A stretch of DNA of 64,000 nt, from NCBI RefSeq assembly GCF_009696575.1, contig NZ_VULQ01000002.1, positions 186,001 through 250,000 of the forward strand, written 5' to 3'. This document shows, in pieces, positions 6,051-23,392 of the stretch. A model generated the notes under the pieces. That model was not told the origin of the DNA. It worked only from the letters and a program-made list of their open reading frames with translations, and did no database searches. The position numbers and the translations under genes are program-made. The DNA comes from Anaerococcus porci. GTDB lineage: Bacteria > Bacillota > Clostridia > Tissierellales > Peptoniphilaceae. The stretch's first letter is position 1. Each line of letters starts with the position of its first letter.

Positions 6051-7864
6051 TATATAGTTTCTAAGCTTTCTACAAATATTTTAGAACTCATATCTGATGG
6101 TAACATAAATCCAGTCCTAGGAGAAAAAGATATCTTAGTTATAGCTGGTCCATCAACAGATACTGACCTTTTGAATTGACTATTTGTAAGCCTCTTATAA
6201 AAGGATATTAACCACTTTTTAATAGTTTCTTTGCTATATTCTTCTTTAAAAGCTACACTTGCTTTTTTATAAATTTCTTTTGCACTAATATTATTTAAAA
6301 ATTCATATGTGAAAAAGTCTATAAGTTCATAAGGTCCTATTATATCTTCTGTCTTTTGGCTTATGTTTCCATCATCATTGCTTTTAAGTTCTGGTGATAT
6401 AGGGGTTTTTAGAATATCATCTAATACTTGCCTTAAATCTTCATTTTCTGTAACTTCTACAAGGTATGAAACTATATATCTTAGTTCAGTTTTTGTAAGT
6501 GATGAGTTTAGGGTATAAGATGACATATGATCGCCATTGTAGGTTGCAAAACCTTGAGAGATTTCTGACTTATCTCCTGTCCCAATTACCAATGCATTTT
6601 TCATATTACCTATATCAAAAAGAATTTGGGTTCTTTCTCGAGCTTGAGAATTTTCATATGCAATATCTTTAGTTATGCCATCATGTCCTATATCTTTTAA
6701 ATGAAGATTTACAGAATCTTTTATAACTATTTCATTAAGTTTTATGCCCAAAGCTTCGGATAGTTTATAAGCGTTTGATTTTGTTCTCTTGCTTGTACCG
6801 AAAGCAGGCATGGTATAAAGATGAATATTTTCAAAAGGTAAATTCACCTTTTTAAAAGCATGGACTATAAATAAAAGTGTCATGGTTGAGTCAAGACCAC
6901 CACTTAATCCTAAAATTACATTTTCACACCCTATAGCCTTCATTCTTTGTATAAGAGCTGATGAAACTATGTCAAATACATCTTCTACATACATTTTCTT
7001 ATCACAATCTTTTGGAAGATATGGAAATTTATCATAATATTCTAAATCATTTACTAAATTATTAAAGTGATGCCCATCTAGAAATTCTTTTTTGTTAAGG
7101 TCAAATCCCTTTACTATATCCACACTTTCGTTTCTCTTATAGTTTTTGATTTTTCCATCATTTGCTATAATATTTAATCCTTCATATACAAAGTCTGTTG
7201 AGCTTTCTCCCAAACCTGAATTTGCTGATAAATAAAGTGTATTTTGGGATAAAAATTCTATTTTATTCTTAACATCATTAAAAGAGCCTGCATATCTAAT
7301 ATATGATGCTGGATTTAGGACTATATCAATTTTATCTTCACTTTTTGAAATAAGAGAATCAGCGATTTCCTTATACTCATTCTCCCCAATAGAAAGTGCT
7401 ATATTCAGACCATCTATATTTATTGATTTTTGATTGAAAATTACAACAAAATCATCTTCTACGTTAATACAGTCTATTTTTTTAGTAGAAAAGATATTTT
7501 TTTCATAATCTTTTAACTTATCTTTAGTAAATGCTCCCAAGATATCTCCAGATTTAATAAGTAAGACTGTATTAAAAAGATCATAGCCATCTTTTATTAC
7601 AAGACCTATACTAAATATTAGGTCATAATCTTTAGAAAATCTCTTTAAGTCTATCAAAGCATCCTTGGATTTTTTTATAATTTCTTCATTTTTATACCCA
7701 TCATAAAGGCTTGCTCCTATTAAGGATAACTCTGGGAAAAGTAGGATATTTACCCCTTCTTTTTCAGCCGCTTTTATAGCTTTTTTTATTATTTCTTTAT
7801 TATAGGATATATCTCCTATTTTTATTTCAAAGTTACTTGCTCTTAATTTTAAATAATCCATCAA
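6050..7864 (-). CDS. nadE: NAD synthetase with a degenerate glutaminase domain
   Basis: 604 residues, the length of glutamine-dependent NAD+ synthetase, which amidates nicotinic acid adenine dinucleotide. Residues 1-265 form a nitrilase-like domain; residues 290-590 the ATP-pyrophosphatase synthetase with LGLSGGLDST (P-loop, about 319-327), the QARERTQILF block and GTGDKSEISQGFATYNGDH. In the nitrilase domain Glu45 (FPELSLIG) and Lys114 (TKDKL) are in place. The catalytic Cys expected in an ICED-like motif is Gly160 (LSIGENEY), read directly from GGG in the DNA. The enzyme probably uses free ammonia. It overlaps the following phosphoesterase gene by one base. The start is ATG with GAGG upstream. 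Confidence 0.92.
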   Translation of the reverse strand: MMDYLKLRASNFEIKIGDISYNKEIIKKAIKAAEKEGVNILLFPELSLIGASLYDGYKNEEIIKKSKDALIDLKRFSKDYDLIFSIGLVIKDGYDLFNTVLLIKSGDILGAFTKDKLKDYEKNIFSTKKIDCINVEDDFVVIFNQKSINIDGLNIALSIGENEYKEIADSLISKSEDKIDIVLNPASYIRYAGSFNDVKNKIEFLSQNTLYLSANSGLGESSTDFVYEGLNIIANDGKIKNYKRNESVDIVKGFDLNKKEFLDGHHFNNLVNDLEYYDKFPYLPKDCDKKMYVEDVFDIVSSALIQRMKAIGCENVILGLSGGLDSTMTLLFIVHAFKKVNLPFENIHLYTMPAFGTSKRTKSNAYKLSEALGIKLNEIVIKDSVNLHLKDIGHDGITKDIAYENSQARERTQILFDIGNMKNALVIGTGDKSEISQGFATYNGDHMSSYTLNSSLTKTELRYIVSYLVEVTENEDLRQVLDDILKTPISPELKSNDDGNISQKTEDIIGPYELIDFFTYEFLNNISAKEIYKKASVAFKEEYSKETIKKWLISFYKRLTNSQFKRSVSVDGPAITKISFSPRTGFMLPSDMSSKIFVESLETI

Positions 7865-9208: not shown

Positions 9209-11134
9209 CTACTTTCTATCTTCTGGTACATCCATTTTAATAAATTGATCTTTGGCTTCACCTGAAACTGGAGATACCCAATTATCTGGTAATTTATCAA
9301 ATGGTGTTCCTGGTTCTATTCCATTTTCTGGATCTCCTTCTTCAGGATTGTATTCGTATCCAGAACCTGTATCTACATAGATTGGGTTTGTAGGTGCCAT
9401 TTTTCTTGGTTTAGATCTTTTCATTTTCTTCATTGGTGGTGCTGGTTTCTTTTCTTCACCATTGTCAAGTTCTTTAATTAATAGTGGAAGAATTTCCATA
9501 GCATCACCTACTATACCATAGTCACAGTTTAAGAAGATTGGTGCATTCTTAGAGTTATTTATTGCAACTATTGTTGAAGCATTTTTAATTCCTTTTAAGT
9601 GTTGTCCTGCCCCAGATACACCTACACCTATATATAAGTTTCCTTTAAATGTTTGACCACTCATACCTACATATCTATCAAGATCAACATATTTTAATGT
9701 TTCTGCGACTGGTCTAGATGATGAAATAGCTGCTCCTGCTTGATATGCTAAATCTTCTATAAGTTTCATATTCTTTTTATCACCTATACCACGTCCAGCT
9801 ACTACTATTCTTTCAGCTTCTTGAACAGGTGTATAAGGATCAATGCCTACAGTGAAGTCATATCCGTCCTTTTTAAGTGCTGCCACAAGGTTTTTAACTG
9901 CTTCTTTAGGATCTCCTTCATAGATTTCACGTTTTCTAACTCCTGCGATGGGTCCAGACTTCTTGTTTGAACCTGCCGCTTTCATCTTAGGTGCTTTTCC
10001 TACTGTGTGAGCTCCGACTACAACTCTCATTATTTCATTTGTACCTTCATAAATTTGTGTAATCTTTGCATCTCTGTAGAATCTTTCTACATCTATACCC
10101 TTGATAAATCCTGAACCACCGTATAATTGTAGAGCTTCTGATGTTATTTTCTCAGCTAAATCTGATGCAAATTGTTTTGCCATAGCTGCATCTGCTGAAT
10201 ATCTTTCGTGATTTTCTTTTAGTTCTGCTGCAGAATAAATCATAAGTCTTGCAGCTTTTAGATATGTTGCCATATCAGCAAGTTTAAAGGTATTTACTTG
10301 AAGATGAGCTATTGGAAGACCAAATTGTTCTCTTTCCTTAGCATATCCTAGAGCTGACTCATAAGCTCCTTGACCTATACCTAATGCTTGAGATGCTATA
10401 CCAATCCTACCACCATCAAGGGTTGCCATAGCAATTTTAAATCCTTGTCCTTCTTTACCTAGTAAGTTTTCTTTAGGAACTTTAACATTCTCAAAATGAA
10501 GTTCTGCAGTTGTTGATGATCTTATACCCAACTTATCATAGTGGTCTGAGAAAGTAAATCCTTCGAAATCTTTTTCAACTATGAATGCAGATATACCATG
10601 AGTTCCAATACCAGGTGTTGTTACTGCAAATACAACATATGTATCAGCCTTAGGCGCATTTGTTATAAAGATTTTTTTACCATTTAATATATAATTATCG
10701 CCATCAAGTTCAGCTGTTGTTTCTGTACCACCAGCATCACTACCAGCATTTTCTTCTGTTAAACCAAATGCTCCAATCTTTTCCCCTTTAGCAAGTGGAA
10801 TTAAATATTTTTTCTTTTGTTTTTCTGTACCAAAAGCAAAAATTGGCCATGTTCCTAAAGATGTATGTGCTGAACAAATTACACCAACACCTCCGTCTAC
10901 TCTAGATAATTCTTCTACTGTTATAGCATAGCTTATAACATCAAGACCTTGACCACCATATTCTTTAGGATAAGGAATTCCTAAAAATCCTAATTTACCC
11001 ATTTCTTTTACAATATCATCTGGGTATTCGTTATTTTGGTCTAAGTCAAAAGCAATTGGCTTTATTTTTTCTTCAGCAAATTCTCTTACTTTTTTACGTA
11101 AAGCTTCATGCTCTGCTGTTGTTTTAAAACGCAT
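9209..11134 (-). CDS. acyl-CoA dehydrogenase / EtfA-like / cysteine-free rubredoxin fusion
   Basis: 641 residues in three parts. Residues 1-380 are an acyl-CoA dehydrogenase with FAD motifs ([13 protein letters not shown]) and the catalytic Glu in IYEGTNEI near residue 365. About 400-560 is the FAD-binding C-terminal half of electron transfer flavoprotein alpha ([26 protein letters not shown]). Residues 585-632 are a rubredoxin-like fold ([27 protein letters not shown]). The four Fe-ligand cysteines are Asp588, Ser591, Ser621 and Ser624. Known fusions of this kind couple acyl-CoA oxidation to electron carriers; here no iron site can form. It is followed by the flavodiiron gene 12 bp on. AGGAGG precedes the ATG. 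No etfB is in the window. Confidence 0.88.
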
Positions 11135-22378: not shown

Positions 22379-23392
22379 ATGTCTAAGTTAAGAATACCAG
22401 AAAACTATCAAAGTGATAAAAATTTATATAAGACACAATTATTAATTAAAGAAATAAAGGATTTTTTCCAAATAAATCTATCTAACAATTTGAATTTAAA
22501 GAGAGTTTCAGCGCCTTTATTTGTAGAAAATTCAACTGGATTAAATGACAACCTATCTGGTGTTGAAGTTCCTGTAAGCTTTACCCTTCCTGAAGCTGAC
22601 AATAAGTCATGTGAGATTGTCCACTCACTTGCTAAATGGAAGAGATATGCACTAAAAGAATATAATTTTGCAATGTATGAAGGCTTATACACTGATATGA
22701 ATGCTATCCGAAGATGTGAAATTCCTGATAATACCCACTCATTTTATGTAGACCAATGGGATTGGGAGAAAATCATTAAAGAAGAAGATAGAAATATCGA
22801 ATATCTAAAAGCTACAGTATTAACTATATTTAATACTTTAAGAGCTCTAGATGAATATCTATGCAAGCTTATTCCAAAAAGATTAAAACTTTTACCAAAC
22901 GACATAAAGTTTATTACTTCACAAGAGCTATTAGATGAGTTTCCTGATGCAAAAGATAGTATGGAAAGAGAAAAACTTGCATGTGAAAAATATAAGGCTA
23001 TATTTTTAATGCAAATAGGTAAAGAGCTTTCTAATAATAAAATACATGATATGAGAGCTCCTGATTATGATGACTGGGAACTTAATGGAGATATAATAGT
23101 TTATAACCCAGTTTTAGATGAGCAACTTGAATTATCATCTATGGGAATAAGAGTAAATAAAGAAACCCTTAAAAAACAATTAAAAATTTCAAATTGCGAA
23201 GATAGGATGAAACTTGACTACCACAAGATGCTTGCAGAAGGTAAATTACCTCAAACTATAGGTGGTGGAATTGGCCAATCAAGGCTATGTATGTTCTTTT
23301 TACAAAAAGCTCATATTGGAGAAGTGCAAGTTTCATATTGGCCAAAAGAAATGTTAGATGAATTAAGAAAAAATTCTATTACTTTATTATAA
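22379..23392 (+). CDS. asnA: aspartate-ammonia ligase
   Basis: 337 residues, the usual length of AsnA, which makes asparagine from aspartate, ammonia and ATP through a class II aminoacyl-tRNA-synthetase-like fold. Recognisable blocks are LKRVSAPLFVENSTGLND, EIVHSLAKWKRYAL, YTDMNAIRR, SFYVDQWDWE and the ATP-site end TIGGGIGQSRLCMFFL. GGAGAG precedes the ATG. Transcribed alone, with a hairpin terminator about 55 bp after the stop. No T-box leader is present. Confidence 0.95.
   Translation: MSKLRIPENYQSDKNLYKTQLLIKEIKDFFQINLSNNLNLKRVSAPLFVENSTGLNDNLSGVEVPVSFTLPEADNKSCEIVHSLAKWKRYALKEYNFAMYEGLYTDMNAIRRCEIPDNTHSFYVDQWDWEKIIKEEDRNIEYLKATVLTIFNTLRALDEYLCKLIPKRLKLLPNDIKFITSQELLDEFPDAKDSMEREKLACEKYKAIFLMQIGKELSNNKIHDMRAPDYDDWELNGDIIVYNPVLDEQLELSSMGIRVNKETLKKQLKISNCEDRMKLDYHKMLAEGKLPQTIGGGIGQSRLCMFFLQKAHIGEVQVSYWPKEMLDELRKNSITLL

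Follow-up and report, generated by a model that had tools for sequence, protein, structure and literature searches.

A glycine in place of the glutaminase nucleophile in a two-domain NAD(+) synthetase of Anaerococcus porci that is probably ammonia-dependent

NAD synthetases have been described as a fused two-domain form and as single-domain forms, the latter either accompanied by their own glutaminase gene or not; the two-component forms are treated as glutamine-utilising and carry an interface signature of alpha9, alpha18 and an extended C-terminal loop (PMC3376133). The accessible part of that source makes no mention of a fused form with a dead glutaminase, and among the matches listed in a search of titles and abstract openings of the open-licence literature we found no such enzyme. 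The octameric NadE of M. tuberculosis (structure 3dla) is reported to have a core of double layers of glutaminase tetramers with the synthetase units at the edges, and to accept free ammonia as a substrate; Tyr127 is given as a ligand contact, Phe180 and Glu177 as the glutamine gate, Tyr58 as a constriction of the tunnel and the YRE loop as an element of tunnel control (PMC6946656). The catalytic cysteine of nitrilases is placed at the apex of a nucleophile elbow that is described as so tight as to force an energetically unfavourable conformation (PMC4812014). By analogy, the nearest known parallel to the enzyme studied here is mammalian CPS1, in which an ancestral glutaminase-like domain is described as dead by replacement of the cysteine, ammonia comes from outside and the domain is kept (PMC4655335). 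CPS1 differs in having another fold with a Cys-His-Glu triad and, in the human enzyme, a serine as the replacement, whereas in the present NadE and its relatives the domain is of the nitrilase type, the replacement is mostly glycine and many lineages are involved.

Here, we analysed a stretch of 64,000 nucleotides of the A. porci genome (the window), which encodes a two-domain NadE whose reading frame starts with TTG, directly followed by ATG (Table 1). The protein matched Pfam PF02540 (NAD_synthase) with 105 bits against a cut-off of 21 and carries the SGGxDS P-loop, which together identify it as an NAD(+) synthetase. With the NCBIfam model NF002730 (long NAD synthase) it scored 465.4 bits, below the cut-off of 473, a near miss that is not diagnostic of activity, as many relatives lacking the cysteine exceed this cut-off. 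PF00795 (carbon-nitrogen hydrolase) was matched with 28.3 bits against a cut-off of 23.2, which places the N-terminal domain in the nitrilase superfamily, though the match covers residues 13-123 only. The protein was alignable as far as the C-terminal tail of 3dla, and it shares with the M. tuberculosis enzyme (NF002730/PRK02628) the order of the domains, the synthetase motifs and the catalytic Glu, the Lys and the second Glu, but differs in a glycine at the nucleophile position, a YRE loop shorter by four residues and the loss of glutamine-binding positions. With the short, single-domain and ammonia-dependent NadE it is predicted to share the nitrogen source, while it keeps about 270 residues of a glutaminase domain that the short form lacks. 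The nearest named relatives that we found were five Anaerococcus records with 65-67% identity, and an AlphaFold2 model built on an alignment of five sequences of the genus reached a mean pLDDT of 45, with the whole N-terminal domain below 50.

Table 1. Features of nadE in the window (positions of the window; residues of the window protein unless stated otherwise).
Feature	Position	Strand	Basis
nadE, two-domain NAD(+) synthetase, 604 aa	6050..7864, stop included	(-)	ORF and profile matches
Nitrilase-like (pseudo-)glutaminase domain, N-terminal, residues 1-270 (border at 270 approximate)	7055..7864	(-)	PF00795 match and alignments
NAD synthetase domain, residues 277-604	6053..7036	(-)	Profile matches, PDB alignment
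P-loop motif SGGLDS, ATP-binding, residues 321-326	6887..6904	(-)	Alignment
Glu45, Glu of the catalytic triad, kept	7730..7732	(-)	E in 30/30 genus rows with a letter
Lys114, Lys of the catalytic triad, kept	7523..7525	(-)	K in 31/31 genus rows
Glu121, second nitrilase Glu (M. tuberculosis Glu132), kept	7502..7504	(-)	E in 31/31 genus rows and 202/202 Cys-bearing rows
Site of four missing YRE-loop residues (M. tuberculosis Tyr127-Phe130)	7505..7510	(-)	Gap in 31/31 genus rows
Gly160 (GGG), where active enzymes carry the nucleophilic Cys	7385..7387	(-)	Alignments, PDB register

The register of the nucleophile was fixed with a Cys-bearing NadE from the same order as the window (L041). In a phmmer search of this protein against the PDB, its ICED motif fell on the ICED of 3dla, the M. 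tuberculosis NadE (PMC6946656), within an alignment of residues 5-639, and chain 6ofc, which is probably the C176A variant of PMC6946656, read IAED at the same place. In a MAFFT alignment of 276 two-domain NadEs (48 from the family of the window genome, 34 from the rest of its order and 194 from a sample of its class), the window protein has glycine in the cysteine column, which otherwise contains Cys in 202 rows and Gly in 56 rows, the window included; the other 18 rows have neither (Glu in five, Ser in four, Leu in three, Pro in two, Ala in two, Asp in one and no letter in one). Glu45 and Lys114 align with the catalytic Glu and the catalytic Lys, so that the Glu-Lys-Cys triad of glutamine-dependent NAD synthetases is represented here by Glu-Lys-Gly, as the sequence-only reading had claimed for all three positions. 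The glycine is not a chance feature of the column, since the 202 Cys-bearing rows have Lys in 202/202 and Glu in all 199 with a letter there, and since every one of the 31 genus genomes (the window genome and 30 others) has glycine there. The genus uses all four glycine codons at this position (GGA 15, GGG 7, GGC 5 and GGT 4), by which a single sequencing error was rejected as the source. We also looked for the case that the sequence-only reading had named against itself, another cysteine in the active site such as Cys132, and it was not borne out: within the genus, position 132 is usually occupied by Tyr, Phe, Asp or Gly, and at any position of residues 1-270 cysteine is found in at most 11 of the 31 genus rows.

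The residues that surround the nucleophile have changed as well. Besides the invariant second Glu, the Cys-bearing rows have Trp180 in 199/202 and Ser203, which we take to be a glutamine-binding residue, in 189/202 (M. tuberculosis numbering). Throughout the genus the YRE loop is incomplete (Table 1), the position of Tyr58 is Ala in all 30 rows with a letter, Trp180 is absent in 31/31 (Phe in one, Tyr in one) and serine is found at the position of Ser203 in a single one of the 31 rows; neither a complete loop nor the set of Tyr127, Phe/Trp180 and Ser203 is present in the window protein. These changes indicate that the glutamine pocket was lost along with the nucleophile, and the comparison argues strongly that glutaminase catalysis is lost in the window NadE. 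If the domain were still a glutaminase, it would have to use another cysteine or a water mechanism built on the kept Glu-Lys-Glu, and the near-invariance of Glu45, Lys114, Glu121 and Glu161 in the genus would suit the latter; but the domain has no conserved cysteine, residues of the pocket and of the YRE loop are missing, and the PF00795 match is low and partial. We therefore consider persisting glutaminase activity highly improbable.

The loss of the cysteine is not confined to the genus. When 130 genomes of the family were searched with NF002730, two-domain NadEs were recovered from 48, spread over ten genera, and Cys was present in none of them. The remaining 82 genomes gave weak matches or none; in other genera of the family the weak long-form matches lie in many cases in open frames of about 240-260 aa, a length as expected of the short NadE. 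Whether glycine is fixed among relatives had been put forward as a check, and this holds for the genus but not for the family around it, where the 17 rows outside the genus have Glu in five, Gly in three, Ser in three, Leu in three, Pro in two and Ala in one. In several of these family members the catalytic Glu and Lys are lost too, with Glu, Lys or both gone in, for example, the genus g53. In the draft genome of A. hydrogenalis DSM 7454 (L038), the NadE frame is broken near the N-terminus by in-frame stops, which may be either a draft error or a real break.

Of 249 genomes searched in the order, 35 outside the family matched the long form, and 34 were used, as one (G158) is a fragment. Thirty of these NadEs have Cys and four have Gly, all four in one genus (g25). 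That genus has 22 matching genomes, in which the glycine rows (L110, L111, L112 and L113) stand beside Cys-bearing congeners; three of them, L112 being the exception, largely keep the YRE loop, and the genus provides a natural series in which to follow how the cysteine loss begins. In the class sample of 391 genomes, 197 matched, three of them in the family of the window, and the remaining 194 NadEs comprise 172 with Cys, 18 with Gly, one each with Ala, Ser and Asp, and one without a letter, so that Cys is lacking in 21/194 rows. The row without a letter (L175) covers the synthetase half of a gene that runs over two frames; the other half, translated in its own frame, has ICEDLW. This Cys-bearing NadE (genome G276, a draft of 72% completeness) is divided between two overlapping frames, one for the glutaminase half and one for the synthetase half, which may reflect either a frameshift error or a true split. 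On these comparisons the loss of the cysteine is family-wide and recurrent in the class; this, like the changes in the glutamine-binding residues and the YRE loop, goes beyond what the sequence-only reading had seen. Outside the family, the pocket is partly kept in the 25 Cys-less rows, with Tyr58 in 11, Tyr127 in 8, Trp180 in 7 and Ser203 in 7. In L110, L111, L113 and L306, glycine occupies the nucleophile position while the loop and the site are mostly intact, which suggests that the cysteine goes early in the order of losses.

To count the losses, we used an IQ-TREE quick tree of the synthetase domain alone, with 331 columns and 115 of the 276 rows. These are 23 of the 48 family rows, the 25 rows from outside the family that lack Cys, and 67 of the 202 Cys-bearing rows, of which 47 were picked as neighbours and 20 at random. 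The minimum number of changes between Cys and not-Cys is 18. If only losses are allowed, 20 are needed, or 17 after forks with support below 80 are collapsed and polytomies merged, and 11 at 95; these counts are rough, as long branches (L170, L172-L174 and L176) group with the family, may be attracted to it and may hide or merge loss events. The 17 losses consist of two mixed clades, which contain the 23 family rows of the tree together with five other rows (four Gly, one Asp), and 15 events with a single replacement. Several glycine rows (L306, L164, L277, L282, L110 and L111) have neighbours in the tree that belong to the same genus or family and carry Cys. Among the 15 single-replacement losses, 13 led to Gly, one to Ala and one to Ser. 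Glycine is one of the seven single-base missense changes from TGT or TGC, and the binomial probability of 13/15 is 8e-10 against 1 in 7 and 0.004 against 1 in 2, figures that are indicative only, as present-day residues are treated as first steps. As a rough guide, the excess of glycine among the losses is far from chance.

We suppose that this bias arises because glycine is the least costly residue at the strained elbow. A pure strain argument is weakened by the other residues (Glu, Leu, Pro, Ser or Ala) in 14 of the 17 family members outside the genus, and CPS1, a comparable case of another fold, would by analogy speak against it with its serine (PMC4655335). The glycine bias, and the retained Glu-Lys-Glu-Gly set of the genus, could also mean that the pocket was selected for a new task, as a port for ammonia into the tunnel or as a sensor site for glutamate or ammonium. 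The same 14 family members make an ammonia port unlikely as a general rule, and several of them have lost the Glu and Lys as well; we hold such a new task to be quite unlikely. A wider proposal would have the Clostridia convert NadE convergently and repeatedly from glutamine to ammonia by the same Cys-to-Gly change, with the Glu-Lys-Glu-Gly pocket of the genus selected as an ammonia port or nitrogen sensor and not as a scaffold, and this also appears unlikely to us.

The synthetase half shows no sign of decay at its P-loop, the SGGxDS motif being present in 48/48 family rows and 25/25 other Cys-less rows. The glutaminase domain, which according to the sequence-only reading is kept though dead, was likewise retained in all 73 Cys-less enzymes; the shortest N-terminal parts have 177 (L012) and 185 residues (L256), stops having limited what could be read of these two rows, and the next has 243. 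We compared pairwise N-terminal identity in bins of synthetase-domain identity. Pairs within the genus fall slightly short of Cys-bearing pairs in each bin (0.412 vs 0.442 at 0.6-0.7), and the family outside the genus lies much lower, with 0.338 at 0.6-0.7 and 0.240, against 0.416 in Cys-bearing pairs, at 0.5-0.6. Near-invariant columns of the genus number 107/328 in the synthetase domain vs 27/270 in the N-terminal domain, and Glu45, Lys114, Glu121, Gly160 and Glu161 are within the 27. Plain decay, by which the domain would be a functionless remnant on its way out, would account for the low identity outside the genus, the slight deficit within it and the loss of Glu, Lys or both in genera such as g53; against it, the difference within the genus is small and not one of the Cys-less enzymes has shed the domain. 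The small deficit and the near-invariant site columns indicate that the dead site is not drifting freely in the genus, and we regard plain decay as rather unlikely. These columns also argue against a merely structural remnant, and a ligand-binding role is possible.

Ammonia might also be supplied by a second protein, a glutaminase docked on the dead domain, in the manner of a two-subunit enzyme, and NAD synthetases with a gene for a separate putative nitrilase-like subunit have been described (PMC3376133). In the window genome, PF00795 finds NadE alone, so that a separate nitrilase-type glutaminase was rejected there, and stand-alone proteins of this fold were found in 3 of the 31 genus genomes; a docked partner is thus very improbable. 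A single NadE is encoded in the genome; three further PF02540 matches are weak, and the best of them lies within the GMP synthetase.

We are therefore fairly sure that the window enzyme is an ammonia-dependent NAD(+) synthetase whose dead glutaminase domain is presumably kept as the core of the oligomer, with glycine presumably favoured for the relief of strain. As the nucleophile and the residues holding glutamine are lost, the first half-reaction could not occur, and the C-terminal domain would adenylate deamido-NAD and then amidate it with ammonia diffusing in. The glutaminase domain would be retained for the role that it has in the octamers of known structure, where it forms the core and keeps the oligomer together. 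With glutamine hydrolysis no longer needed, glycine would be favoured as the least costly residue at the tight, strained nucleophile elbow. The comparison thus supports the earlier proposal that the domain should not hydrolyse glutamine and that NadE depends on free ammonia. This bears on domain content as a predictor of nitrogen use, a two-domain NadE being counted as glutamine-dependent. The repeated Cys-to-Gly change would be a natural replicate of an amidotransferase giving up glutamine, in which it can now be tested whether a strained catalytic residue is given up in favour of stability when its catalysis is no longer required, and why the dead domain stays.

The sequence-only reading had further sought support in the ecology of an ammonia-rich anaerobe and in the aspartate-ammonia ligase AsnA. 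AsnA is real (22379-23392; TIGR00669, 330.6 bits against a cut-off of 292.8), but GuaA, the GMP synthetase of the window genome, keeps its glutaminase cysteine (GICYG), and a PF00120 match in a 692-residue frame represents a glutamine-synthetase-like protein. Glutamine is thus not absent from the metabolism of this genome, and the ecological argument for ammonia dependence is weak; the cysteine of GuaA also indicates that the loss is specific to NadE and that glutamine hydrolysis survives elsewhere. Across genomes, PF00120 was not found in 12/42 Cys-less genomes vs 0/21 Cys-bearing comparators (Fisher p 0.006), a comparison that covers 42 of the 73 Cys-less genomes and picked comparators (20 neighbours by the synthetase domain and one added). 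A missing glutamine synthetase was rejected as the driver, because related genomes and selected comparators were used and the window genome itself has a PF00120 match.

Two further observations were made in this genome. Among class I amidotransferases (PF00117), the genome, 99.8% complete, gave a strong match for the GMP synthetase (156.7 bits) and two weak ones (25.7 and 21.1 bits); it may lack CTP synthetase and carbamoyl phosphate synthetase. Two genes from nadE, a frame at 9209-11134 (-) joins an acyl-CoA dehydrogenase to an FAD-binding domain of the EtfA type and, at the C-terminus, to a rubredoxin domain (residues 592-631; PF00301, 52.1 bits). In this rubredoxin domain, the four cysteines are apparently replaced at VDTGSG and SPVSG, which we take to be the iron-binding sites, and it appears to be a second cofactor-less pseudo-domain near nadE.
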